Assembly: GCF_030682515.1 (NCBI RefSeq)
Contig: NZ_JAUXOD010000139.1
Location: forward strand, 1-41,507
From: Hoeflea sp.
GTDB lineage: Bacteria > Pseudomonadota > Alphaproteobacteria > Rhizobiales > Rhizobiaceae
Direction of reading: 5' to 3'
Length of the DNA: 41,507 nucleotides
Shown here piece by piece: positions 27,420 to 41,424 of the stretch (position 1 is its first letter; each line of letters opens with the position of its first letter). Position numbers and translations under genes: made by a program. The notes below the pieces were generated by a model. That model had not been told where the DNA came from and searched no databases. It worked only from the letters and a program-made list of their open reading frames with translations.

Positions 27420-27427
27420 AACTTCAT

Positions 27428-27549
27428 TCTCAGGGCGGGGTGAAATTCCCCACCGGCGGTACAGCCCGCGAGCGCTTTCAACGTCTGAAAGGTCAGCAGA
27501 TCCGGTGTGATTCCGGAGCCGACGGTATAGTCCGGATGGTAGAGAATGG
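27428..27549 (+). ncRNA. FMN riboswitch (RFN element)
   Basis: The conserved blocks of the RFN aptamer occur in order: AGGGCGGGGTGAAATTCCCC, ACCGGCGGTA, AGCCCGCGAGCG, a variable arm, then CAGATCCGGTGTGATTCCGG, AGCCGACGGTATAGTCCGG and ATGGTAGAGAATG. This aptamer binds flavin mononucleotide and lowers expression of the gene behind it, here ribH. Confidence 0.95.
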
Positions 27550-27567
27550 TCGTTTGGCAACAGGTCT

Positions 27568-27629: not shown

Positions 27630-28103
27630 ATGACAAAATCCCTCAAATTCGCATTCATAAAGGCGCGCTGGCACGCTCAGATCGTCGATCAGGCGCTGGT
27701 CGGTTTCCTGGCGCGCGTCAAGGAACTGGACCTGGACGCCGAAGTGGTGCCCTTCGATGTCCCGGGTGCCTTTGAAATGCCGCTGCTGGCGCAGAAACTG
27801 GCCCGGACCGGCGACTATGACGTGATCATTGCCGCTGCCCTTGTCGTTGACGGCGGCATCTACAGGCACGATTTCGTCGCCCAGACCGTCGTCAACGGGC
27901 TGATGGACGTGCAGTTGAAGACCGACGTGCCGGTATTGTCCGTCTCGCTGACGCCGCATCACTTTCAGCCGAAGGGCGAACATGAGCGCTTCTTTGCCGC
28001 CCATTTCGTCGAGAAGGGCCGTGAAGCCGCCGATGCGGCAGCCCAGGTCGTCAGAATGAACGCCGCGATTTCTCAGCAACCGGACAGGGCCCACGCGGCC
28101 TGA
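27630..28103 (+). CDS. ribH: 6,7-dimethyl-8-ribityllumazine synthase (RibH2 type)
   Basis: A 157-residue lumazine synthase, which condenses 5-amino-6-ribitylamino-uracil with 3,4-dihydroxy-2-butanone 4-phosphate in the penultimate step of riboflavin synthesis. Conserved elements are the N-terminal FIKARWHAQIVDQAL, VPGAFEMPLLAQKLA, the ALVVDGGIYRHDFVAQTV loop with the active-site histidine, and the PVLSVSLTPH region. The sequence style, with HDFVA in place of the usual HFDYV order, matches the decameric RibH2 isoform of Brucella and Mesorhizobium. A second, housekeeping RibH1 would then be elsewhere. The FMN riboswitch upstream makes it flavin-responsive. The ATG follows an AAGGA site. It stands alone, with no other rib gene beside it. 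Confidence 0.93.
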   Translation: MTKSLKFAFIKARWHAQIVDQALVGFLARVKELDLDAEVVPFDVPGAFEMPLLAQKLARTGDYDVIIAAALVVDGGIYRHDFVAQTVVNGLMDVQLKTDVPVLSVSLTPHHFQPKGEHERFFAAHFVEKGREAADAAAQVVRMNAAISQQPDRAHAA

Positions 28104-28231: not shown

Positions 28232-29683
28232 CTAGCTGCAGGCGCGACGTATGGCGTCGCGCCATGTCGCGCGGATGACGGCGGCCGCTTCCGGCGCCAT
28301 CTCCGGCTCAAACCGCGTGCTGCGCGCGTCGGGGAGCCATTCAACTCCGAGCGCGCCGAACGCCATGGCGGCGGCGCCCAGGGCGCTGATTTCCTCGACC
28401 ACCGCACTTTCGACCGGACACTGAAGCAGATCCGCCTGCAATTGCATCAAAAACGCATTCGACGAGGCGCCGCCATCGGTCCGCAGTCCTTCCAGCCGTG
28501 CTCCGATGTCCGCCTGCATGGCCTCGAAGACATCGGCGATCTGCAGCGCGATCGCTTCGAATGTGGCCCGTGCCACATGCGCAGGCCGTGTGCCATGGGT
28601 CATGCCCGCCAGTGTGCCTGTCGCGTGATCATTCCAATGTGGCGCGCCCAGCCCGGACAGGGCCGGCACAAAGGTTACCCCGTCCGCAGTCGCCACGGTT
28701 TGCGCCAGATCGGAAAGCCTGGCGGCATCCCCCACTCCGAGCAGCCCCGCGATGAAGGCGGCGGCTTGCGCGGACACCAGGATGTTGCCTTCCAGCGCAT
28801 AGGCCGTGCCGGACCTGTCGGTCCAGGCAATGGTGCCTGACAGGCCATGGCCGGATGCGACGCGGTGCGGCGTCAAGGCCATCAGCGACGAACCGGTGCC
28901 GTAGGTGGCCTTGACCGTTCCGGGTTGACGCACGCCATGGCCGTAGAGTGCAGCGTGACTGTCCCCCAGCATCGCCATGATCGGAATGCCCGCCGGAAGA
29001 GCGGTTGTTCCGGGCGCCGTCTCGCCGAACCGGCTGTCGGATGGCCGGGGATCGGGCAGGCAGGACATCGGCGTCCCGAAAATCTCCGCCAGTTCGCTGC
29101 TCCACTTGAGTTTTTCGGTGTCGAACAGCTGCGTGCGCGCGGCATTGGAATGGTCGGTTGCAAACGATGCCCCGCCGGTCAGGTTCCATAGCAGCCAGCT
29201 GTCGACCGTGCCGGCCCGCAGCCGGCCCTGATCAAACAGGTCCAGTGCCTCAGGCCGGTTTTTCAGGATCCAGGCCAGCTTTGAAGCGGGAAACATCGGG
29301 TTGATGCCCAGACCGGTGGCGGCTTCCACGGTCTCATTGTGCCCTGCCGCAATCAGCGCTGCGCATTCGGGGGCGGTGCGCCTGCATTGCCACAGGATCG
29401 CCGGGCCGACGGGGTCACCCGTTTCCGCGTCCCAGGTCACGATGGTCTCGCGCTGGTTGGAGATGGCGATGGCGTCGATCGGGCTGCCGTTCACTTGGGC
29501 CGCCACGGCGTCGATGACCGCGCGTGTGTCATTCCAGACGCGGCCTGCCGATTGTTCGGCCCAGCCGGGATGCGGGTAATCGGTGGTCGAGGGCGTCGAC
29601 GCCTGCGCATGAATCCGCCCGGTCCTGTCGACGATCAGCGCCTTTGTGTTTGTCGTTCCCTGATCGATTGCCAGGACATACAT
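28232..29683 (-). CDS. FGGY-family carbohydrate kinase
   Basis: A 483-residue sugar kinase with the two-lobed actin-like fold. The N-terminal phosphate loop reads LAIDQGTTNTKALIVD. The middle holds IAISNQRETIVTWD and ILWQCRRT. The second lobe shows TYGTGSSLMAL, FVPALSGLGAPHW and LRTDGGASSNAFLMQLQADL, which are FGGY hallmarks. Similarity to glycerol kinases is obvious, but several glycerol-contact regions differ and the operon contains an isomerase and a split transketolase, so a ketose or branched-sugar kinase (as in apulose kinase of the apiose pathway) is more likely. It is the last gene of the leftward operon, three bases after the transketolase C subunit stop. Confidence 0.88.
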   Translation of the reverse strand: MYVLAIDQGTTNTKALIVDRTGRIHAQASTPSTTDYPHPGWAEQSAGRVWNDTRAVIDAVAAQVNGSPIDAIAISNQRETIVTWDAETGDPVGPAILWQCRRTAPECAALIAAGHNETVEAATGLGINPMFPASKLAWILKNRPEALDLFDQGRLRAGTVDSWLLWNLTGGASFATDHSNAARTQLFDTEKLKWSSELAEIFGTPMSCLPDPRPSDSRFGETAPGTTALPAGIPIMAMLGDSHAALYGHGVRQPGTVKATYGTGSSLMALTPHRVASGHGLSGTIAWTDRSGTAYALEGNILVSAQAAAFIAGLLGVGDAARLSDLAQTVATADGVTFVPALSGLGAPHWNDHATGTLAGMTHGTRPAHVARATFEAIALQIADVFEAMQADIGARLEGLRTDGGASSNAFLMQLQADLLQCPVESAVVEEISALGAAAMAFGALGVEWLPDARSTRFEPEMAPEAAAVIRATWRDAIRRACS

Positions 29684-29686
29684 CGA

Positions 29687-30649
29687 TCAGTTTCCCTTGC
29701 GCCGCATGGCAATGCGGGCAGCGCTGGCGATCCCAGCCGGACTGAGGCCAAATTCCTTGAACAGGCTTTCAATCGAGCCGGTCGGCATGAAGCCGGGGAA
29801 ACCAACCCTTTGGACCGGGACAGGATGGCTGGCCGAAGTGCATTCAGCAACCGCACCGCCGAGACCGCCGCGGTCCAGCGCTTCCTCGACAGTCACGATC
29901 GCTCCGGTTTCCCGAGCCGCCGCGATGACCGCATCGGTATCGAGCGGTGTGATCGTGTGCATGTTGAGGACACGCGCGGACACGCCCTCCCCGGCCAGCA
30001 TCTCCGCCGCGGACAAGGCCAGATGAACCGTGGTGCCATTGGCGATGAGCGTCACATCGCTGCCCGGTCTTTGCAGTTCCGCCTTGCCGGCAGTGAAGCT
30101 GCGGCCGGGCAAGTCCAGCGTCGGGACCTTCATCCGTGAAAGCCGCAGGTAGACCGGCCCCTCATGGGCTGCTGCCCATTTGATCGCTTCGGCCGTTTCC
30201 CAAGCGTCGCAGGGCGCGATCAGGGTGATTGGCCCCAGCGCCCTGAGCCAGGCGAAGTCCTCGATGGAATGATGCGTGGCGCCGAGTTCGCCATAGGCAA
30301 TGCCGGAAGACTGGCCCACCAGTTTGACGTTGAAGCCGGCATAGGCGACGTCCGCCTTGAGCTGCTCCATCGCCCGCGCAGTCAGGAAGCAGGACGCGGC
30401 CGAAACAAACGGAACGCGACCGCCATTGGCCAGGCCCGCGGCAACGCCAACCATGTTCTGTTCGGCAATGCCGACATTGATCGTACGGTCGGGGAACTTC
30501 TGCTTGAACCCCCCGAGATTGGAGGAGCCGACCGAGTCGTTGACGACGACGACAATGCGCTCGTCCGCTTCCGCCAGGCTTTCCAGTGTTTCGGCCCATG
30601 CCACACGGCAATCGAGGCGGAGAGCAGTTTCTGCTGCAGCAACAGGCAT
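29687..30649 (-). CDS. Transketolase, C-terminal subunit (split transketolase)
   Basis: A 320-residue protein starting at ATG 30649, one base overlapping the N-subunit stop (TGATG). It corresponds to the pyrimidine-binding and C-terminal domains of transketolase: NVGIAEQNMVGVAAGLANGG with the thiamin-activating glutamate, then YGELGATHHSIEDFAWLRA and the closing Rossmann-like domain (VEEALDRGGLGGAVAEC). With the N subunit it forms a thiamin-diphosphate enzyme that moves a two-carbon ketol unit. Split transketolases of this kind are typical of peripheral sugar pathways such as apiose (AptA/AptB) degradation. The longer frame to 30769 is a shadow. Confidence 0.93.
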   Translation of the reverse strand: MPVAAAETALRLDCRVAWAETLESLAEADERIVVVVNDSVGSSNLGGFKQKFPDRTINVGIAEQNMVGVAAGLANGGRVPFVSAASCFLTARAMEQLKADVAYAGFNVKLVGQSSGIAYGELGATHHSIEDFAWLRALGPITLIAPCDAWETAEAIKWAAAHEGPVYLRLSRMKVPTLDLPGRSFTAGKAELQRPGSDVTLIANGTTVHLALSAAEMLAGEGVSARVLNMHTITPLDTDAVIAAARETGAIVTVEEALDRGGLGGAVAECTSASHPVPVQRVGFPGFMPTGSIESLFKEFGLSPAGIASAARIAMRRKGN

Positions 30650-31482
30650 CAGACCAGTTCCTTCATTGCTTGTGCGAATTGCTCCGCATTTGGCACGCCA
30701 TGGTGCCATTTTGTCAGATTCTCCATGAACGAGACGCCCTTGCCCTTCACCGTGTTGGCGATAACGCACAACGGTTTTTCGCGGCTGCCCACCGGCGTGC
30801 CGAGCGTGTCCAGCAGCTGGCCGTAATCATGGCCCGAGATTTCAGCAACCTCCCAGCCGAAGGCGCGGTATTTGTCATCAAGCGGGTCAAGGCCTGCAGT
30901 CTCCTCCGTTCCCGCGCCCTGCTGCAAGCGGTTGCGATCGATGATCAGCGTGAGGTTTTTCACCTTGCGGTGGCCTGCGGTCATCGCCGCTTCCCAGTTC
31001 GATCCTTCCTGCTGTTCGCCGTCGCCGGTGAGCACATAGGTCCGGTACCCGGCGCCGGTGATCTGTCCGGCGATGGCGATTCCCAGAGCGACCGGAAAGC
31101 CGTGCCCGAGCGGGCCGGTGTTGGTTTCCACGCCAGGCAGATATTGCCGGTTGGGATGGCCGTTGAGCTTGGAATGGTGCGCCATATAGGTGTCGAGCCA
31201 GTCCTCAGGAAAATAGCCAGCCGCCGAAAGCGCGGTGTAGAGCGCCCCGGTCGCATGCCCCTTGGACATCACGAAGCGGTCGCGATCGGCCCAGTCCGGA
31301 CGGGCCGGGTCGTAGCGGAGCACGCCGAAATAGAGCGTCGCCAGAATGTCGATTGCGGAGAAATCACCGCCCAGATGGCCAAGTTGCTTGTCAAACACCA
31401 TCTGAAGCGCGCGCCGCCGCATCCACAGGGCTTTGTCGCGGATCAGGCCTTCGGAATTGTCTGTTTTCAGTGCATGGCTCAT
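30649..31482 (-). CDS. Transketolase, N-terminal subunit (split transketolase)
   Basis: A 277-residue protein carrying the thiamin-diphosphate pyrophosphate-binding domain. Landmarks are GHLGGDFSAIDILATLYFG, SKGHATGALYTAL, LGHGFPVALGIAIA, the metal motif GDGEQQEGSNWEAAM and the IIDRNRLQQ strand. The length and the stop right at the C-subunit start identify it as one half of a two-polypeptide transketolase. It follows the isomerase gene with a 9-base gap in a tightly packed operon. Confidence 0.93.
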   Translation of the reverse strand: MSHALKTDNSEGLIRDKALWMRRRALQMVFDKQLGHLGGDFSAIDILATLYFGVLRYDPARPDWADRDRFVMSKGHATGALYTALSAAGYFPEDWLDTYMAHHSKLNGHPNRQYLPGVETNTGPLGHGFPVALGIAIAGQITGAGYRTYVLTGDGEQQEGSNWEAAMTAGHRKVKNLTLIIDRNRLQQGAGTEETAGLDPLDDKYRAFGWEVAEISGHDYGQLLDTLGTPVGSREKPLCVIANTVKGKGVSFMENLTKWHHGVPNAEQFAQAMKELV

Positions 31483-31491
31483 CAGCCTGCC

Positions 31492-32958
31492 TCACTTGCG
31501 GTTTGGAAAGAAGAGCTGCGGCTCGGGCGTGCCGTTGTGATGATAGGACGGCCAGCGCAGATAACGGCTGACCGCCTCATGGACGACATCGGCGTGGTGC
31601 CCGCGCACCATGGCGACATGGTGCTCGAAGCCGTTCTGCGTGACGAACCGCATGAGCTCGCGGAGACGTTCGACCCTCGTGACCGCGATCCCTCCATCCA
31701 TGCCGAAGGGATCATCGGTGAACTCGCCTTCGCCAAGGTAGCACTTGAGCATGCCGTTGCGGTCATCCGAGGACAGTCGGAAATAGGTCATGTCGCCGGG
31801 CTGGACCTTGCCCTTGACGGCGCCGAAACATTTTTCGCGGCCGATCACTTCGCCCAGCACATCGAGCTCGCCCACTTCCGGCGTCTCGCCCAGGAAGCTC
31901 TTGGGATAATTGCCGCAATGGGTGCAGACGCATTTGTCGACATGGTCGGCGTAGTTGTTGTTCCAGTCAAGAATCGCCGCCGGCGCGCCGGCGGCAAGCG
32001 TCAGCGCATACATTGAAACCGACCCCATGACGTCGACCTCACAGGCCGATGGCATCAGATCCTCGCCCATCATCGACATGGTCAGGCAGGTGGCGCAGCC
32101 GAAATTGTCCTGAAGCGAGCGCCAGCACTGGATGGCCGAGGCGTCGCATTCGTTCTCATCGATCCAGCGGTTGACCGCCAGCGTCCACTTGGCCTGTTTT
32201 TGAACCTGCTGATCGCGGATGTGGCCCGGGATCCGGCCATAGTTGCGGATGCGCTCCAGCCCGGAGACCAGATCGCCGTCATCATCCCGGATCGCTTCCG
32301 CGGCCGCCATCAGTTCGGACAGATCCGCGGTGATCACCGTAATCCCGGACTGCTGCAGCAGCTTCTCCGAAAACCGCATGGTCTGGAACGGGCCGGTGCG
32401 GGCGCCGATCGCGCCGACGCGCGCGCTGGTCAGGCCGCGCACGGTGCGGCAGACGCGGGCGAACCGGTCCAGGTCGCCGAGGAACTCGTCGCTGTCGATG
32501 TCGCAGGTGTGGTTTGTCGTTTCGGTGAAGGGAACCCCGTATTGCCAGAAATTGTTGGCGACCGAGAGCTTGCCGCAGAAGGCATCCCGGCGCGAATGCA
32601 CATCGACCTTGTCGAGTTCGTCATTGGAGGCCTGAAGCAGGATCGGCACATTCAGCCTTGTCCGGTTGATCAGCTCGGCAATGGCGATCTCGTCGCCGAA
32701 ATTGGGAAGGCAGATCACAAGGCCGTCAATCTGGTCGCGATGGGCCTTGAAGTGCTCCGCATAGAGCTTGGCATCCGGGATCGACTGGACAGCGCCGTTC
32801 TCGGTGGCATCCACCGGCAGCAGGATGGCCTCGACGCCGAGCTTTGCCAGTTGCGCTAGAATCTGCGTACGGGCATCTATGCAGGGCGCCGGATTGAAGA
32901 AGGCGCGGCTGCCGATCACGACGCCAAGTGAAATCCTCCGGTTTACGATCCGTATCAT
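31492..32958 (-). CDS. L-fucose/L-arabinose isomerase-family protein
   Basis: A 488-residue protein of the FucI/AraA-like fold. The first domain begins ISLGVVIGSRAFFN and includes LVICLPNFGDEIAIAELI and the QASNDELDKVDVHSRRDAFC segment. The metal-binding region falls around MGEDLMPSACEVDVMGSVSM (acidic ligands E and D). The C-terminal domain contains GHHADVVHEA, a histidine-rich ligand segment. Such enzymes interconvert aldoses and ketoses with Mn2+. The presence of a CxHC-like motif (CVCTHCGNYPKSF) is seen in several uncharacterised members. It is the first gene of the leftward operon, next to the intergenic operator region. The substrate aldose is unknown. Confidence 0.85.
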   Translation of the reverse strand: MIRIVNRRISLGVVIGSRAFFNPAPCIDARTQILAQLAKLGVEAILLPVDATENGAVQSIPDAKLYAEHFKAHRDQIDGLVICLPNFGDEIAIAELINRTRLNVPILLQASNDELDKVDVHSRRDAFCGKLSVANNFWQYGVPFTETTNHTCDIDSDEFLGDLDRFARVCRTVRGLTSARVGAIGARTGPFQTMRFSEKLLQQSGITVITADLSELMAAAEAIRDDDGDLVSGLERIRNYGRIPGHIRDQQVQKQAKWTLAVNRWIDENECDASAIQCWRSLQDNFGCATCLTMSMMGEDLMPSACEVDVMGSVSMYALTLAAGAPAAILDWNNNYADHVDKCVCTHCGNYPKSFLGETPEVGELDVLGEVIGREKCFGAVKGKVQPGDMTYFRLSSDDRNGMLKCYLGEGEFTDDPFGMDGGIAVTRVERLRELMRFVTQNGFEHHVAMVRGHHADVVHEAVSRYLRWPSYHHNGTPEPQLFFPNRK

Positions 32959-33023
32959 CTGGTCCTCCCATCCCTAACGGCGACACGAAGGTCACCGGGG
33001 CAAGGCGCCGGGACTTTCATATG

Positions 33024-33042
33024 CTTTCGAATGGTATCGAAT
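33024..33042. promoter_or_regulatory. Candidate DeoR operator, TCGAAT direct repeats
   Basis: TCGAAT occurs at 33027-33032 and 33037-33042, i.e. exactly 10 bases apart on the same face of the helix. It overlaps the -10 and spacer of the leftward promoter, so binding would block the isomerase operon. Confidence 0.5.
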
Positions 33043-33059
33043 AGCGTGTTTTGACGCAA
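33031..33059 (-). promoter_or_regulatory. Candidate promoter of the isomerase-transketolase-kinase operon
   Basis: On the - strand, TTGCGT (33059-33054), a 17-base spacer and TACCAT (33036-33031) give a fair sigma-70 promoter about 70 bases upstream of the isomerase ATG. Confidence 0.45.
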
Positions 33060-33148
33060 GCGACGATCTGACCTCCGGGCGAGACAATTCGACCTGATTG
33101 TGAACAGAACGCCACGGTCCGGATCAACATCCTGTTTTTATTTCCTTA

Positions 33149-33221
33149 ATTCGAAAGCCAGGGGTCATGCTTTGTTTTCGATTGCCGAGGAAATATGCGA
33201 AAAAGCGCAGCATTCGAAAAA
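33149..33221. promoter_or_regulatory. Cluster of TTTCGA-type boxes upstream of the rightward sugar operon
   Basis: ATTCGAAAG at 33149-33157, TTTTCGATT at 33175-33183, TGCGAAAAA at 33196-33204 and ATTCGAAAAA at 33212-33221. The last abuts a perfect -35 element. They share the core with the boxes near the leftward promoter. Confidence 0.5.
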
Positions 33222-33225
33222 AATA

Positions 33226-34249
<1,024 letters not shown>

Positions 34250-34265
34250 GGCGTGACCGCGCTGG

Positions 34266-34292
34266 CCGGGGCAGGGTTCGTCCATGCCCCGG
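34266..34292 (+). other. Hairpin after the ribose-type binding protein gene
   Basis: CCGGGGCA pairs with TGCCCCGG across an 11-base loop. As with other binding-protein genes, it probably stabilises the upstream message or lowers read-through. Confidence 0.45.
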
Positions 34293-34394
34293 TCTTTGCG
34301 TCTGCACGTTTCGGGCCGGTGCCCCGGACAGGGAAATGTCGTGGAGCCGTCAGTGCGCTCCCGCCGCATTTCGCATTTTAAGCCAGAGAGCATC

Positions 34395-35039
34395 ATGATC
34401 CGCATCACTTTCCTCACCGCCTGCGTCGTGGCAGCCCTAAGCCTTTCCGGGTGCAAGCTTGTCAAGAATACGCCCGACGACGAGAAGGCGGTCGCTGCCG
34501 ACGCCAGCGGCGATGACGCCCGGACTGACCAACGCATTGCCGACACCTTCGAACCGACGCTGTTGCCGTTTGTGCGGGAGAAAGCGCTCGAAGTGCCCGT
34601 CCTGCGGTCGCTGCTGTCTCGGGGGCTGGACGCGGCGGGCCAGGCGCACGGAAACCGCGGGGCCGGCCAAGGGGCCGCCTGGAACTTCGCCCTCACCGGC
34701 ACGGGCACGGTCGTTTCGGCCAAGCTCGACACGCGAGCGCGCGTGGCCGATCTTGATACCGACGCCGACGGTGTGGCGGACCTGACCATCCAGCTTGGTC
34801 CGGTGATCCGCGGAACCGCCCTGCGCGACTTTGCGCCTTTCTACAAATTCGACGATTTCCGGGACCAGATCGAGTTCGCCAAGCTCGGGCGCGCGCTCAA
34901 CGACCGGATCTCCGGCGCCATTGTCCTGCCCGAGGGCGATCTGATCGGCCGGACCATGACATTCACCGGCGTCGTTGCGCTCAAGAGCGCTGACGAAGTG
35001 CTGGTGATGACCCCGATCAGCGTCGGCGTGACGCCATGA
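34395..35039 (+). CDS. DUF2291-family lipoprotein
   Basis: A 214-residue predicted lipoprotein: the signal peptide ends in a lipobox (LSLSGC, cysteine about 20), followed by a charged linker. The body shows the DUF2291 features AWNFALTGTGTVVSAKLDTR, a D-rich turn (ADLDTDADGVADLTIQLGPV), IRGTALRDFAPFYKFDDF and a final FTGVVAL segment. DUF2291 genes usually lie in ribose-type sugar ABC operons; their role is not known. Here it sits between binding protein and ATPase, and its stop overlaps the ATPase ATG by four bases. An accessory role in ligand capture or permease assembly is an inference. Confidence 0.8.
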   Translation: MIRITFLTACVVAALSLSGCKLVKNTPDDEKAVAADASGDDARTDQRIADTFEPTLLPFVREKALEVPVLRSLLSRGLDAAGQAHGNRGAGQGAAWNFALTGTGTVVSAKLDTRARVADLDTDADGVADLTIQLGPVIRGTALRDFAPFYKFDDFRDQIEFAKLGRALNDRISGAIVLPEGDLIGRTMTFTGVVALKSADEVLVMTPISVGVTP

Positions 35040-36592
35040 GCCCGGCGCACAGCGACGCCGCCCATCCGATAGGCCTGAGCATCCGCCGTGCGGTCAAGGT
35101 CTATCCGGGAACCGTCGCTCTCAAGAATGTCGATTTTGATATCCGCATGGGCGCGGTGAACGTGCTCGTAGGCGAGAACGGCGCGGGCAAATCCACGCTG
35201 ATGAAAGTCATCGCCGGCGTCGAGTCCCTGACCGAAGGCGAGATCACGCTCGACGGACGCAAGGTGGCATTCCGCAGCAAGGATGACGCGGTCGCCAACG
35301 GGATCGGCATCGTGTTCCAGGAACTCAACCTGTTTCCCGACATGACGGTCGGCGAGAACGTGTTCATCGCCAGGGAGCCGCTGCGGTTCGGAATCAGCAT
35401 CGATCAGAGGGCCGTCACGGAGCGCACCCGCGCCTTGATGCAGCGGCTTGAGCAGGACATCGATCCCGACACGCCGCTCGGGCTCCTGCGCATCGGCCAG
35501 CAGCAGATTGTCGAGATCGCCAAGGCGCTGGCGCAGGACGCCAGGATCCTCATCCTCGACGAGCCGACTTCGGCGCTCTCCGCCGCGGAGGTCGAGGTGC
35601 TGTTTCGCATTATCGATGAACTCAAGACGCAGGGCGTCGGCATCGTCTACATCTCGCACCGGCTCGAGGAGCTGATCCGGGTCGGCGACTACATCACTGT
35701 TTTGCGCGACGGCGAAATCACCGGGTCGCGCACCATGGAGGGCGTCGACATTGCCTGGATCGTCCAGGCGATGATTGGCGGCAAGTCCAAGGACTTTTCG
35801 CAGACCCAGGCCCATGAATTCGGCCGGGAAGTGTTTCGCGCCGAGGACATCACGCTGCCCAAGGCGGGCGGCGGTTTCACGGTCGATCGCCTGTCCCTTT
35901 CGGTTCGGGCGGGAGAGATCGTCGGTCTTTACGGACTCATGGGGGCCGGCAGGTCCGAGTTTCTCGAATGCATCATGGCGCAGCACCCCGATTCCAGGGG
36001 CCATTTCTTCATGGATGGCAAGGAGATGCGGGAAAGGCACGTCGCCGGCCGGATCGCGCGCGGCATCGCCCTCGTGCCCGAGGACCGCAAGCGTGACGGG
36101 CTGATACAGATCATGTCGGTCCGCGAGAACATCACCCTGTCTTCCCTCGCCCAGTTCGCCACGGGCTTTCACCTCAGCCTGCGCAAGGAAGCGGCCCGCG
36201 CTGCCGAATTCATCAAGCGGATGACGGTGAAAGTCGCAAGCCCGGACAACCCGATCTCGTCCCTGTCCGGAGGCAACCAGCAAAAGGTGGTGATCGGCAA
36301 GGCGCTGATGACAGGCCCGAAGGTGCTGCTGATGGATGAGCCCTCACGCGGAATCGACATCGGCGCCAAGGCGGAAATCTACCAGAAGATGCGGACGCTC
36401 GCGGCGGAAGGGATCGCGATCATCTTCGTCACATCCGATCTGGAGGAGGTGCTGGCGCTGTCCGACCGGATCATCGTGATGGCCAATGGACGCCTCAGCG
36501 GCGAGTTCGGACCGGATGCGGACCCCGCCAGTGTGATTGCCGCTGCTTCCCCCGCCAAGCCCGCCAACAAGAACAAGGAAACAGCACTATGA
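35036..36592 (+). CDS. Ribose-type sugar ABC transporter ATP-binding protein (RbsA-like)
   Basis: A 518-residue protein with two ATPase domains in tandem. The first has Walker A GENGAGKSTLMK (about 43-54), signature LRIGQQQIVEIAKAL and Walker B ILILDEPTSAL. The second (from about 260) has a degenerate Walker A (GLMGAGRSEFLE), signature LSGGNQQKVVIGKAL and Walker B LLMDEPSRGID. This layout is characteristic of RbsA/MglA/XylG. It overlaps both neighbours by 4 bases (ATGA), so DUF2291, ATPase and permease are translationally coupled. Confidence 0.94.
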   Translation: MSPAHSDAAHPIGLSIRRAVKVYPGTVALKNVDFDIRMGAVNVLVGENGAGKSTLMKVIAGVESLTEGEITLDGRKVAFRSKDDAVANGIGIVFQELNLFPDMTVGENVFIAREPLRFGISIDQRAVTERTRALMQRLEQDIDPDTPLGLLRIGQQQIVEIAKALAQDARILILDEPTSALSAAEVEVLFRIIDELKTQGVGIVYISHRLEELIRVGDYITVLRDGEITGSRTMEGVDIAWIVQAMIGGKSKDFSQTQAHEFGREVFRAEDITLPKAGGGFTVDRLSLSVRAGEIVGLYGLMGAGRSEFLECIMAQHPDSRGHFFMDGKEMRERHVAGRIARGIALVPEDRKRDGLIQIMSVRENITLSSLAQFATGFHLSLRKEAARAAEFIKRMTVKVASPDNPISSLSGGNQQKVVIGKALMTGPKVLLMDEPSRGIDIGAKAEIYQKMRTLAAEGIAIIFVTSDLEEVLALSDRIIVMANGRLSGEFGPDADPASVIAAASPAKPANKNKETAL

Positions 36593-37656
36593 CGTCAATC
36601 ACTGAAAGGGCGGCGGTCAGACCCCGGAGCAAACACGACTGGCTGTTGCTACTGCTCAAGGCGCGCACCCTTGTCGCACTGTTGCTCGTGCTGGCGTTCT
36701 TCTCGTTCGCGGCGCCGAATTTCCTCAGCACCGCCAACGCCATCCTGATCTCCAAGCATGTGGCGATCAATGCCTTCCTGGCGATCGGCCTGACCTTTGT
36801 CATCATCACCGGGGGCATCGACCTGTCCGTGGGCTCGGTGGTTGGCCTGACCGGCATGATCGCCGGCTGGCTGGTGCTCAACGGCATCGATATCGGGTTC
36901 GGCTGGTCGATCCAGTTCAACACGCTGGAGATCGCCGCCATTGTCTGTCTCGCGGGAATCCTGGTCGGCGGGATCAACGGGATACTGATAACGCGGTTCA
37001 ACGTCGCGCCGTTCATCGCGACGCTGGGCATGCTCTACGTCGCCCGTGGCGCGGCACTGCTGTTTTCCGAAGGCCGCACATTCCCCAACCTCAACGGCAA
37101 TCCGGACTATGGATCGGACAGTTTCCCGTTGATCGGCACCGGAAACTTCCTGGGCCTTCCTGTCATGATCTGGATGCTGATCGCCGTCACATTGGGCGCA
37201 GCCTGTATTGCCAACCGGACCCCGCTCGGAAGGCACATCTACGCCACCGGCGGCAATGAGCGCGGCGCGGCGCTTTCGGGTGTGCGTGTCGCCAGGGTCA
37301 AGATGTTCGTCTACATGTTCTCGGGCCTGATGGCCGCGATCGTCGGCCTGATCATTGCCTCGCAACTCAGGGCCGCCCATCCTGCCACGGGCGAATTCTT
37401 CGAACTGAACGCCATTGCGGCCGCGGTCCTGGGGGGAACCTCGATGTCCGGCGGGCGCGGGCGCATCATCGGCACGATCATCGGCGCCTTCGTGATCGGC
37501 ATTCTTTCTGACGGCCTTGTCATGATGGGGGTCTCGTCATTCTGGCAGATGGTTGTCAAAGGCCTTGTCATTATCGCCGCCGTGGTCATTGATCAGGCTC
37601 AAAGCCGGCTTCAGGCGCGGGTGGCGCTTGCACAGGAAGTTACCCAAAGCCGGTAG
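36589..37656 (+). CDS. Ribose-type sugar ABC transporter permease (RbsC-like)
   Basis: A 355-residue inner-membrane protein with about 8-10 hydrophobic segments. The family motif ITGGIDLSVGSVVGLTGMIA is present near residue 75, GILVGGINGILITRFNVAPF in the middle, YATGGNERGAALSGVRV in the cytoplasmic loop, and AAAVLGGTSMSGGRGRIIGT towards the C-terminus. It forms the channel for the transporter encoded upstream. Confidence 0.94.
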   Translation: MTSITERAAVRPRSKHDWLLLLLKARTLVALLLVLAFFSFAAPNFLSTANAILISKHVAINAFLAIGLTFVIITGGIDLSVGSVVGLTGMIAGWLVLNGIDIGFGWSIQFNTLEIAAIVCLAGILVGGINGILITRFNVAPFIATLGMLYVARGAALLFSEGRTFPNLNGNPDYGSDSFPLIGTGNFLGLPVMIWMLIAVTLGAACIANRTPLGRHIYATGGNERGAALSGVRVARVKMFVYMFSGLMAAIVGLIIASQLRAAHPATGEFFELNAIAAAVLGGTSMSGGRGRIIGTIIGAFVIGILSDGLVMMGVSSFWQMVVKGLVIIAAVVIDQAQSRLQARVALAQEVTQSR

Positions 37657-37767
37657 GGCCGGGCTGCGGGGGATTGAGGTAGGTGTTGCTCTTGCAGGTG
37701 TTAGAAACTAAGTGAAGTAGTGATTGCCGTCATTCGGCACGAATGGCCGGAGTCGAGGAGTTAAGGC

Positions 37768-38577
37768 TTGCAAGAGCAACCGGATACCGAGCGCAATGGA
37801 AGCATGGCGGGCCTGCTGTCCGAGCCACGCCGCCGCCGTATCCTTGAATGGATCGAGGAAGAGGGTTCGGCCCGCGTCCGCGATCTCTCCTCGGCATTCC
37901 AGGTGTCGGAAGCGACCATACGCCAGGATCTGGAGCGACTGGAAAAAGAGGGACACATCACCCGCGAGCATGGCGGCGCTTTTCTCAACGCCATGCGCAG
38001 CCAGGTGCAGGGCTTCGTGCTTCACCATCAGGTCAACATGGACAGGAAGAGAAAGATCGGCGCCTATGGCGCCAATCTGGTCAGTGACGGCGAAACACTG
38101 ATCCTCGACGCCGGGACCACGACGACCGAAGTGGCGACCCGGCTTGTAACGCGCAAGAACCTCACGATCATCACCAATGCGCTCAACATTGCCGTGATCC
38201 TTGGCACCGTTCCGGGCTTTGCCGTGCATATGCCCGGCGGTCAGTTCAAGGCGCCGACCCTGTCGCTGTCCGGCGACAAATCGGTCGAATATTTCCGAAG
38301 CATCTTCGCCGGAAAACTGTTTCTTGCAACAGCCGGGGTCGCAGCCGACGCGGGCCTGACCTATCCGAGTTTTGCCGATCTCCAGCTCAAGGAGGCCATG
38401 ATCAAGGCGGCAAGCCACGTGTACCTCGTTGCGGATTCGACCAAGATCAACCGCACCTCATTCACCCGGCTTGGCGCGCTTGAACTGGTGCATTCCTTCA
38501 TCACCGATGACGGCATATCCGATGCCGACGCCAAGGAATTCGAACGCCGCGGCGTGGAAGTGCTGATCGCCCAGTGA
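37768..38577 (+). CDS. DeoR-family transcriptional regulator of the sugar regulon
   Basis: A 269-residue regulator. An N-terminal winged helix-turn-helix (RRRRILEWIEEEGSARVRDL, then VSEATIRQDLERLEKEGHI, about 21-65) precedes a DeoR sensor domain with ILDAGTTTTEVATRL, ITNALNIAVIL and MPGGQFKAPTLSLSG. The sensor normally binds a phosphorylated sugar intermediate. TTG 37768 is favoured as start because GAGGAG lies 7 bases before it; ATG 37804 is the alternative. It is 111 bases after the permease, in the same direction, and is the only regulator in the regulon. It likely recognises the TTTCGAAT-type boxes at 33.0-33.2 kb. Confidence 0.9.
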   Translation: MQEQPDTERNGSMAGLLSEPRRRRILEWIEEEGSARVRDLSSAFQVSEATIRQDLERLEKEGHITREHGGAFLNAMRSQVQGFVLHHQVNMDRKRKIGAYGANLVSDGETLILDAGTTTTEVATRLVTRKNLTIITNALNIAVILGTVPGFAVHMPGGQFKAPTLSLSGDKSVEYFRSIFAGKLFLATAGVAADAGLTYPSFADLQLKEAMIKAASHVYLVADSTKINRTSFTRLGALELVHSFITDDGISDADAKEFERRGVEVLIAQ

Positions 38578-39104: not shown

Positions 39105-40634
39105 TCAAGCAGCCTTCCCGTCGCTTGAGACGATGCCCGAAATCGCCTGGATCAGGCTATCCTCTGTAACCTCCTCCGAGGTGAATTCACGCATGATCCG
39201 CCCGCTGTACATCGCGATGATGCGATCGGAAACATGCAGCACTTCCGGCATTTCCGATGAGATGACGATGATGGCGTAGCCCTGCGATGCGAGATCCCTG
39301 ATGAGTTTGTGGATTTCGGCCTTGGAGCCGACATCGATGCCGCGCGTCGGTTCGTCGACGATCAGCACTTTCGGATGCATGGACAGCCATTTGCCGATAA
39401 CGATCTTCTGCTGGTTCCCGCCAGAAAGATTGCCCGCCTGCTGCTTCCAGCTCGGGGTCTTGATCTTCAGCTTGTCGTGGTAGAGGTCGAAGATCGCTAT
39501 CTCCGCGCCGTCCGACACGAAGGGTCCGGCGGTCAAGTCGCTCACCTGCGGAAGTGTCATGTTGTCCCGGCAGTTCATGCCAAGGATGAGCCCCTGTTCC
39601 TTCCGGTTTTCCGGAACCAGAGAGATGCCAAGATTGATGGCGTCCACCGGAGAGGTGATTTCCACCTGCTCACCGTCCAGGACAATGCTTCCACCGGTCG
39701 GCGTTCTCAGGCCGAACAGGGTTTCGGCAATTTCCGTGCGTCCGGCCCCGACAAGGCCATAGAAGCCAACCACCTCACCGGCGCGAACCTTGAAGCTGAC
39801 ATCCTGGTAGAGTGAGCCACAGGAAAGGCCTTTCACCTCCAGCGCAACCTCGCCAAATTCATGGTCATTGACGTGACGCGTCAGGTCAAGCTTGCGCCCG
39901 ATCATCAGGTGGGTGACGTCCTCTTCGGTCGTCTTTGCGGTTTCCAGCGTGCCGCGATACTGACCATCGCGCAGGACCGAAATGCGATCGGTGATCTTGA
40001 AGATTTCTTCCATCCGGTGAGAGATGTAGATGATGCCGACGCCATGAGATTTCAGATCCTCGATCACCTCGAAGAGCACGGATTTTTCGGCGTCGGTGAG
40101 CGAGGCAGTCGGTTCGTCGAAGATGACCGCCTTGGCTTCATGGGTAAGCGCCCGCGCAATCTCCACCATCTGCTGGTTGGCGATCGACAGGTCCCCAACC
40201 TGGGTCCGGGCACTAAAGCCCACCTTGAGGCGCTGCAAGATCGTGTTGGTCTTGTTGAACAGGGCTTGCCAGTCCACCAGCCCAAAACGCTTGCGCGGCA
40301 GTTCGCCCAGGTAGATGTTTTCGGCAACCGTCAGTTCCTTGGCGAGGCTGAGTTCCTGGTGAATGAAGACAATGCCCTTGTGCTTGGCCTCAAGCGGCGA
40401 GCTCATCTTCACGGGTGTTTCATTGACAATGATCCGGCCGCTGTCGGGCTGATGAATACCGCCAAGGACCTTCATCAGCGTTGACTTGCCTGCGCCGTTT
40501 TCTCCCATGAGGGCATGCACCTCGCCAGGCATGACGTCGAAAGACACATCGTCGAGTGCCCGGACACCGGGAAAGGTCTTGACGATGCCTTCAAGGCGAA
40601 GCGCAGGGACCGATACAGGAGCTTGCTTGCTCAT
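39105..40634 (-). CDS. Ribose/xylose-type sugar ABC transporter ATP-binding protein
   Basis: A 509-residue tandem ATPase. ATG 40634 overlaps the permease stop (ATGA); the upstream extension of the frame is a shadow. Domain 1 has Walker A GENGAGKSTLMK (about 41-52), signature LSIANQQMVEIARAL and Walker B AVIFDEPTASLTD. Domain 2 has GLVGAGRTEIAE, LSGGNQQKIVIGKWL and VLIVDEPTRGID. It is intact although its permease is frameshifted and truncated, so it probably no longer has its own channel unless it serves another permease. It is a distinct paralogue of the ATPase at 35036-36592. Confidence 0.93.
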   Translation of the reverse strand: MSKQAPVSVPALRLEGIVKTFPGVRALDDVSFDVMPGEVHALMGENGAGKSTLMKVLGGIHQPDSGRIIVNETPVKMSSPLEAKHKGIVFIHQELSLAKELTVAENIYLGELPRKRFGLVDWQALFNKTNTILQRLKVGFSARTQVGDLSIANQQMVEIARALTHEAKAVIFDEPTASLTDAEKSVLFEVIEDLKSHGVGIIYISHRMEEIFKITDRISVLRDGQYRGTLETAKTTEEDVTHLMIGRKLDLTRHVNDHEFGEVALEVKGLSCGSLYQDVSFKVRAGEVVGFYGLVGAGRTEIAETLFGLRTPTGGSIVLDGEQVEITSPVDAINLGISLVPENRKEQGLILGMNCRDNMTLPQVSDLTAGPFVSDGAEIAIFDLYHDKLKIKTPSWKQQAGNLSGGNQQKIVIGKWLSMHPKVLIVDEPTRGIDVGSKAEIHKLIRDLASQGYAIIVISSEMPEVLHVSDRIIAMYSGRIMREFTSEEVTEDSLIQAISGIVSSDGKAA

Positions 40635-41424
40635 ACCTTCAACTCCTCCTTGGCCTTGATGTTGAGTTGGCGATCGAGGAACAACACCGCGATCAGGATC
40701 AGGCCGATGACCAGATTTACCGTCTCGGTGCCCGCCCCGATATAACCCAGCCCCTTGCGCAAGAGCTGGATGGCAATGACACCGCCAAGCGTGGAAACAA
40801 TCGATCCGGCCCCGCCGGCCAGCTTGGTTCCGCCCAGCACCACGGCCGTGATAGCCCAAAGTTCGAACAGCGAGCCATCATTGGGATTGACCGACCCGCT
40901 TTCCGAATAGAACACGGCAGCAGAGAGTGCTGCCAAAAACCCGATCAGCATGAAATTGATCATCATGTGCGGTCCGACGCGAATGCCCGCGTTGACCGCA
41001 GCCTCCCGATTGTCGCCAATGGCGTAGGATTGCGACCGTGAACCGTGCGGTTCATCAGGAACCACAGGGCGGCTGCGACCGTCAGCAGGAACCACGTTGC
41101 CGTGTGCAGACCCAGAAACTGCGCTTCGGCAAAATCGACAAGGGTCCAGTTGAGTTGTGACGTGGGCTGTTCGCCATTGTAGATGAACACCAGCCCGCGG
41201 TAGCCGAGCATGGACCCCAATGTAACAATGAAGGCATCGACTCCGGTTTTCCAGACAATGAGCCCATTGACCGCGCCAAGCACCACACCGGTGAGCAGAG
41301 CCAGGATCCACGATATCGGGATCACCCAGTCGCCAAACCCGGCGAAGACCGGCCAGGTCATGCTGTCGAGCATCACGATTGCCGCAAGCGCATAGGTTGC
41401 CCCAACACTAATACCAGTCCTCAT
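40631..41424 (-). pseudogene. Sugar ABC transporter permease, truncated and frameshifted
   Basis: The frame from ATG 41424 begins MRTGISVGATYALAAIVMLD, i.e. at the ribose-type permease motif IDLSVG with two residues lost and everything N-terminal missing. It continues through FGDWVIPISWILALLTGVVL and GVDAFIVTLGSMLGYRGLVF to LMNRTVHGR near 41038. There one base appears to be missing: the sequence resumes in the next frame with QSYAIGDNREAAVNAGIR and runs to the natural end RQLNIKAKEELKV. The frameshift could be a sequencing error, but the lost N-terminus next to a probable IS end argues for real decay. Overall about 265 residues remain of the usual about 330-400. Confidence 0.82.

Follow-up and report, generated by a model that had tools for sequence, protein, structure and literature searches.

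The closest described counterparts of the locus considered here are the D-apiose clusters of the transketolase pathway ApsI-AplK-AptA-AptB, reportedly set out by Carter et al. in 2018, the source of the kinase and transketolase chemistry assumed below; isoapionate is said to be named as an intermediate in one paper (PMC6302742). These clusters combine a split transketolase, an FGGY kinase and a CUT2 importer with DUF2291 in a single operon or divergon, as does the locus at positions 28,232 to 38,577 of a 41,507-nucleotide contig from Hoeflea sp. (NZ_JAUXOD010000139.1, positions 1 to 41,507; this whole stretch is called the window), part of an assembly, G000, of 4.67 Mb in 144 contigs. The first enzyme of the pathway clusters, however, is a PF01261 barrel, whereas in the window it is a protein of the FucI superfamily. 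The enteric apiose clusters have a SorC-type regulator in contrast to the DeoR protein of the window, and the cluster of Rhizobium SL42 has a divergent layout like that of the window. According to the available part of one recent account, Pectobacterium carries the reference cluster with apsI, the E. coli SE15-type cluster is termed one of D-apiose degradation, strains bearing such clusters grow on D-apiose, and the E. coli ST131/SE15 cluster comprises AplK, AptA, AptB and an importer with DUF2291 but, in that account, no apsI and no isomerase, two short-chain dehydrogenase/reductase (SDR) oxidoreductases being present (PMC13001218). We propose that the window probably carries a regulon for D-apiose uptake and catabolism in which a FucI-superfamily enzyme replaces ApsI. 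From the comparisons of sequence and gene order given below, it also seems likely that this enzyme represents a second D-apiose isomerase, unrelated to ApsI in sequence or Pfam family, that has been swapped with ApsI several times on one backbone, is the commonest first step in our enteric sample and reaches the Thermodesulfobacteriota and Planctomycetota, in which case searches for apsI would under-call or mis-call apiose use.

Nine open reading frames, four leftward and five rightward, are all present with the expected families (open reading frame list, Pfam and NCBIfam), and the divergent unit claimed in a preliminary description of this DNA, with isomerase, split transketolase and FGGY kinase opposite an importer with DUF2291, is borne out. 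The leftward genes are separated by 9 bases (isomerase/AptA), -1 (AptA/AptB) and 3 (AptB/kinase); on the other arm, 4-base overlaps join the DUF2291 gene to the ATPase gene and the ATPase gene to the permease gene. The features, with coordinates in the window, are the following.

31492..32958, minus strand: FucI/AraA-superfamily isomerase, proposed non-orthologous D-apiose isomerase in the ApsI slot (Pfam Fucose_iso_C)
30649..31482, minus strand: AptA-like transketolase subunit, thiamine-diphosphate binding (N) half (PF00456, E 5.8e-43)
29687..30649 (start set at 30649), minus strand: AptB-like transketolase subunit, Pyr and C-terminal domains (PF02779 and PF02780)
28232..29683, minus strand: AplK-like FGGY kinase, proposed D-apulose kinase (PF00370/PF02782)
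32959..33307, no strand: shared divergent control region with a conserved motif and inverted repeats
33308 (ATG) or 33284 (GTG) to 34249, plus strand: CUT2 solute-binding protein (SBP), proposed to bind D-apiose, best PDB matches 5ibq/4ry0
34395..35039, plus strand: DUF2291 lipoprotein, importer accessory (PF10054, E 1.5e-46), with a lipobox-like LSGC read from the sequence
35036..36592, plus strand: CUT2 ATP-binding cassette (ABC) ATPase, RbsA type (PF00005 in two stretches)
36589..37656, plus strand: CUT2 permease, RbsC type (PF02653)
37768 or 37804 to 38577, plus strand: DeoR-family regulator, presumed repressor (PF08220 and PF00455)

Judged by orthology, the D-apiose transketolase route forms the backbone of the locus. 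The adjacent transketolase halves are orthologous to AptA and AptB of the known clusters, one tree holding them all, and the adjoining FGGY kinase is of AplK type, scoring under the NCBIfam cut-offs for glycerol kinase and xylulokinase. In Rhizobium sp. SL42 the divergent cluster recurs with its FucI-like gene replaced by that of a 'TIM barrel protein', and its products share 84% (SBP), 80% (DeoR), 76% (AptA), 70% (AptB), 60% (kinase) and 48% (DUF2291) identity with those of the window; for E. coli SE15, where DUF2291 is included and two SDR genes stand in lieu of the isomerase, the values are 44% (aptA), 42% (aptB) and 43% (aplK). Plasmids of Klebsiella, Rahnella and Sodalis unite SBP, DUF2291, ATPase, permease, regulator, both AptA/AptB halves, a FucI-like isomerase and the kinase. 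The likeness to the apiose route that had been drawn from AplK, AptA and AptB is thus confirmed by orthologues in apiose clusters, as is the membership of DUF2291 in the same unit, since known apiose clusters, that of E. coli SE15 among them, also contain it. Of the two possibilities raised in the preliminary description, the orthology of the backbone favours a variant apiose route over another rare aldose. The idea of an undescribed catabolic system was not supported, because kinase, transketolase, importer and regulator all have orthologues in barrel-type clusters, around the same slot, and an undescribed pathway was rejected, a known apiose backbone being present with only its first enzyme differing. 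That this first enzyme is unusual was correct: it matches PF02952 only, and the cluster has no PF01261 barrel.

The match of the isomerase to PF02952 (Fucose_iso_C) has an E value of 5.6e-29 and a score of 101 bits, against a gathering score of 29.3. By Pfam and NCBIfam, the protein is a member of the L-fucose/L-arabinose isomerase superfamily and not a homologue of the PF01261 barrel; its sole NCBIfam match is SftI, a sulfoquinovose isomerase (NF048012), at 91 bits, well under the 700-bit cut-off. It is 46-47% identical to the copies from Klebsiella, Rahnella and Sodalis. Residues E307, D331 and H447, candidates for a Glu/Asp/His metal site, are invariant in a 32-row alignment, and the 24-residue spacing between E307 and D331 equals that between E337 and D361 in E. 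coli FucI (residue letters checked), two residues which we take to be metal ligands. E. coli FucI thus has the PF02952 C-terminal domain family and the E-24-D spacing in common with the window isomerase, but is 591 residues long as against 488. Another, distant member of the superfamily is encoded at G000:C27:6050-6883; where loci were compared, it shares 26-29% identity with the window isomerase, and it occurs in 12 of the 18 genomes of the genus, that of the window included.

The evidence that the FucI-like protein takes the place of ApsI includes the exchange of the two isomerase types in clusters that are otherwise the same. Loci were collected with isomerase, AptA or barrel queries and span up to 20 kb except for one, and genes within clusters were labelled using score thresholds that we set. 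In the Enterobacteriaceae, the gene order SBP-DUF2291-ATPase-permease-AptA-AptB-kinase-X is the same for both types, X being the barrel in L188, L189 and L182 and the FucI-like gene in L183, L186, L191 and L198. Between L186 (FucI) and L188 (barrel), seven shared proteins are 72-89% identical, with DUF2291 at 47%, and between L191 (FucI) and L182 (barrel), eight proteins are 62-88% identical; in these clusters, most proteins resemble their counterparts in the partner cluster, which has the other isomerase type, more than those in the cluster of like type with which they were compared. Indeed, L186 is closer to L188 than to L191, also of FucI type, in all eight shared families (AptA 87 versus 80%, kinase 72 versus 61%). 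A barrel and a FucI-like gene occur together in none of the 114 loci with AptA and AptB. The AptA+AptB tree was built for 113 of these loci (in the other, one subunit was too short) by a quick method, with SH-aLRT as its sole branch support; it requires the barrel label to change five times, each change being imposed by starred branches. Its deepest joins, like the position of two Streptomyces barrel rows, are unsure because long branches meet there, as the program warned. Four barrel clusters of Rhizobium and Sinorhizobium nest within the starred 33-row clade that contains the window. A more careful tree (LG+G4) was made from six proteins of 23 Enterobacterales clusters of FucI or barrel type, each complete for the six; L176, a duplicate from Sodalis whose AptAB are identical to those of L003, was excluded. 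Here a single clade of the three barrel rows was rejected by 311 log-likelihood units (p-AU 3.5e-5). Because the two types exchange in one slot, do not co-occur and alternate on the trees, the FucI-like and barrel isomerases would do the same job, unless specificity shifted back and forth in step.

Such a shift is what would be needed if the FucI-type clusters acted on another rare or branched aldose, the kinase, transketolase and importer having changed specificity alongside the isomerase. The superfamily is diverse, with SftI as the sole NCBIfam match and that far under its cut-off, and some copies of the isomerase lie in other sugar clusters; nevertheless we consider this unlikely, since similarity among the remaining proteins does not follow the isomerase type, as the comparison of L186 with L188 and L191 illustrates, and the SBP pocket is constant across isomerase types in the six proteins compared (see below). 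It is very improbable that the FucI-like protein performs some other step, for example as an epimerase, while an unlinked enzyme supplies the apiose isomerase. FucI-like genes can indeed be unlinked from AptAB, and the genome of the window, whose cluster has no PF01261 barrel, does encode a distant one (G000:C88:69926-70822; E 5e-57, 194 bits); against this stand the exact exchange in the slot, the lack of co-occurrence in the 114 loci, and the identity of only 34-36% between that barrel and three apt-cluster barrels, for which reason it was also rejected as a hidden ApsI.

Over 332 residues, the barrel of genome G392 (L188) is nearly identical to PDB 3ktc, which we take to be a sugar isomerase of Pectobacterium atrosepticum. 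The same genome, alone among the 14 tested, contains an exact site for primer Y1, which the available part of its source describes as Pectobacterium-specific (PMC9503840); no exact match was found in the 13 others, including G258, G316 and G606. A barrel is also present in G281, of the same genus as G392 by group code. The PF01261 barrel is thus most likely to be ApsI, given its occurrence in an apparent Pectobacterium, the reference genus for apsI, and its near identity to 3ktc. The three apt-cluster barrels compared above are 58-85% identical to the Pectobacterium-type barrel. Barrel relatives encoded on Pantoea plasmids (61-63% identical), which in the three records examined are not part of any apt cluster, were excluded from the trees.

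The importer is consistent with apiose as the substrate. The window SBP is 77% identical to a protein of R. etli p42f whose sequence includes the 5ibq stretch exactly and whose gene stands in one run with oiaX, which belongs to an oxidative apiose route. Of the two structures of this protein, 5ibq is presumably the complex with apiose and 4ry0 that with ribose; the one paper found to name 5IBQ describes it as a probable ribose transporter protein. All 13 pocket positions (RbsB numbering) are identical in the SBPs of the window, R. etli, two enteric barrel-type clusters, one Rhizobium barrel-type cluster and one Klebsiella FucI-type cluster. An ordinary operon for the import and catabolism of ribose or another common pentose might be suspected, given that the ABC parts score as ribose/arabinose/xylose type, that the SBPs of relatives are annotated as D-ribose binding and that 4ry0 is presumably ribose-bound, and yet this seems highly unlikely: the identity of the SBP to E. 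coli RbsB is only 32%, pocket position 164 has Trp where RbsB has Phe, and ribose use requires neither an isomerase nor a split transketolase. The ordinary ribose operon was rejected because none of the nine genes encodes a ribokinase or RbsD. The SBP of E. coli SE15 (L008:17009-17944) is 46% identical to that of the window and has 6 of the 13 pocket positions changed; its natural ligand may therefore be a different form, such as the sugar alcohol apiitol, convertible to apulose by two dehydrogenases.

Among loci with SBP, ATPase and permease, DUF2291 is present in 62 of 65 with the FucI-like isomerase, 7 of 7 with the barrel and 13 of 16 with the SDR pair. It is the least conserved part of the system, at 44-68% identity where the SBP is at 77-88%; a PDB search found no relative at E 1, and a literature search under the name DUF2291 found no paper. 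Our guess is that the lipoprotein may help the SBP dock.

The link between the isomerase and the split transketolase recurs well beyond the window. In a scan of genome contigs, of which the best 80 of 565 confirmed relatives were kept (more distant members lie outside this view), both transketolase halves share the locus with the isomerase in 62 of the 80, the kinase does so too in 57, and the complete set of enzymes and importer is present in 36. The survey of isomerase neighbourhoods envisaged in the preliminary description shows an association with AptAB beyond chance. Among 246 genomes of one GTDB family, at the level of Enterobacteriaceae, sampled evenly out of a larger group, 45 contained AptA, at 46 places; AptA was present in 24 of the 25 isomerase-carrying genomes as against 21 of the 221 others (Fisher p 7e-20, kinship ignored). 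The 40 AptA regions examined (G660, G638, G434, G679, G677 and G585 were left out) have a FucI-like isomerase in 19 cases, an SDR pair in 15, a barrel in 3 and none of these in 3. The isomerase occurs in 7 of the 18 genomes of the genus, that of the window included, each time beside AptA, AptB and SBP (L089-L095); in two Hoeflea loci, the nearest rows on the AptAB tree, it is 89% identical to that of the window. On the same tree, the FucI-type isomerase with AptAB extends to the Thermodesulfobacteriota and Planctomycetota. Other arrangements were seen as well. In L202 (G237) and L203 (G521), the FucI-like isomerase is hundreds of kilobases distant from the apt cluster, which in L203 has an SDR pair. 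L066:294-9428 (with L063; Rhodocyclaceae, Propionivibrio) has an importer with DUF2291 and a FucI-like isomerase, and also two E. coli-like SDR genes, a mixed first-step arrangement.

Several observations weigh against D-apiose as the substrate of the FucI-like isomerase and its importer. Sequence searches with the single sequence or with a 32-row profile found no PDB relative of the isomerase, the N-terminal FucI domains Fucose_iso_N1 and N2 find no match in the window protein, and hhalign of the isomerase family against E. coli FucI (L105 and L108, evidently translated in the wrong frame, being disregarded among twelve distant homologues) aligned the two only locally, weakly and in part (E 0.014-0.028), with no usable result in global mode. 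The mapping of the metal site is therefore drawn from PF02952 and the residue spacing. Adjacent AptAB are missing from 18 of the best 80 isomerase loci; the contigs concerned include short ones (4.9-9.1 kb) as well as longer ones, and L019 and L020 show no apt genes in 17 kb. When the 18 genomes were searched with the window AptA, 15 gave a match (E <=1e-40; best identities 37-61%) and 3 none, a result that speaks neither for nor against an unlinked pathway, because its 52-61% matches overlap the range of the AptA copies adjoining the isomerase in L026, L028 and L031 (52-56% to the window AptA). Copies of the isomerase from Spirochaete, Bacteroidetes and Chloroflexi adjoin xylulokinase-like kinases and dehydrogenases, and, given these neighbours and the loci that lack apt genes, the family may include enzymes with other substrates. 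In the Enterobacteriaceae, the isomerase lies within about 5 kb of AptA in 21 of the 25 carriers and is not adjacent in 4: in G521, G638 and G237 it is far off or on another contig, and in G477 (49% complete) no AptA was found at the cut-off. The window SBP, moreover, may not be exclusive for apiose, because 4ry0 is presumed to be a ribose complex.

If the locus does serve D-apiose, the sugar would enter through the SBP/DUF2291/ABC system and the FucI-superfamily enzyme, with a bound divalent metal, would isomerise it to D-apulose, which the FGGY kinase would convert to D-apulose 4-phosphate; AptA/AptB would then transfer two carbons to glyceraldehyde 3-phosphate, so that D-xylulose 5-phosphate and dihydroxyacetone phosphate are formed. 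The DeoR protein would repress both arms from the common region until a sugar phosphate appears. This region, 349 bases counted to the SBP start at 33308, contains inverted repeats and a copy of TTTCGATT at 33176-33183, with TTGACA at 33226. The 8-mer TTTCGATT/AATCGAAA is present in 23 of the 31 orthologous divergent regions, which are kin, whereas 100 dinucleotide shuffles gave a mean of 1.8, with no 8-mer exceeding 10 regions; the exact 8-mer is missing from the divergent regions of L064, L005 and L205. We infer that the conserved 8-mer could be a DeoR-type operator.

The reassignment would provide a concrete function for a widespread family named only 'L-fucose/L-arabinose isomerase family protein' or 'fucose isomerase' in the records examined, and a clean example of the repeated non-orthologous replacement of one step with eight neighbouring genes unchanged. 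It would also allow a better prediction of apiose use from pectin in marine, plant-associated and enteric bacteria, seagrass walls being one source of apiose. Three first-step modules, the barrel, the FucI-like enzyme and the SDR pair, can be told apart for a pathway that, according to the available part of the source, is found in pandemic E. coli clones (PMC13001218). That part of the article, the only relevant paper on D-apiose catabolism found, makes no mention of a FucI-type isomerase; a description in Carter et al. 2018 is possible.

At the kinase end, the cluster is abutted by a gene for a RibH-type lumazine synthase (27633-28103), preceded by a flavin mononucleotide (FMN) riboswitch (27422-27551, 126.6 bits). 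Eight of the searched loci have a riboflavin gene beside the apiose cluster, for RibH in the window, L044, L021 and L043 and for RibB in L005, L205, L206 and L082, at either end of the cluster and with both isomerase types; the riboswitch is present in six of the seven other such loci, L082 being without it. The Hoeflea loci L009 and L064 have no riboflavin neighbour. Pentose use is possibly linked to riboflavin supply, the independent cases being fewer than the count because several of the loci are close kin. At the other end, the cluster adjoins a second ribose-type (CUT2) importer, with ATPase and permease genes (39105-41311, minus strand). In L211 and L006, on plasmids of Streptomyces and Croceibacterium, transketolase and kinase genes stand beside those for pectinesterase, GH28 and GH95, which fits a sugar derived from pectin.

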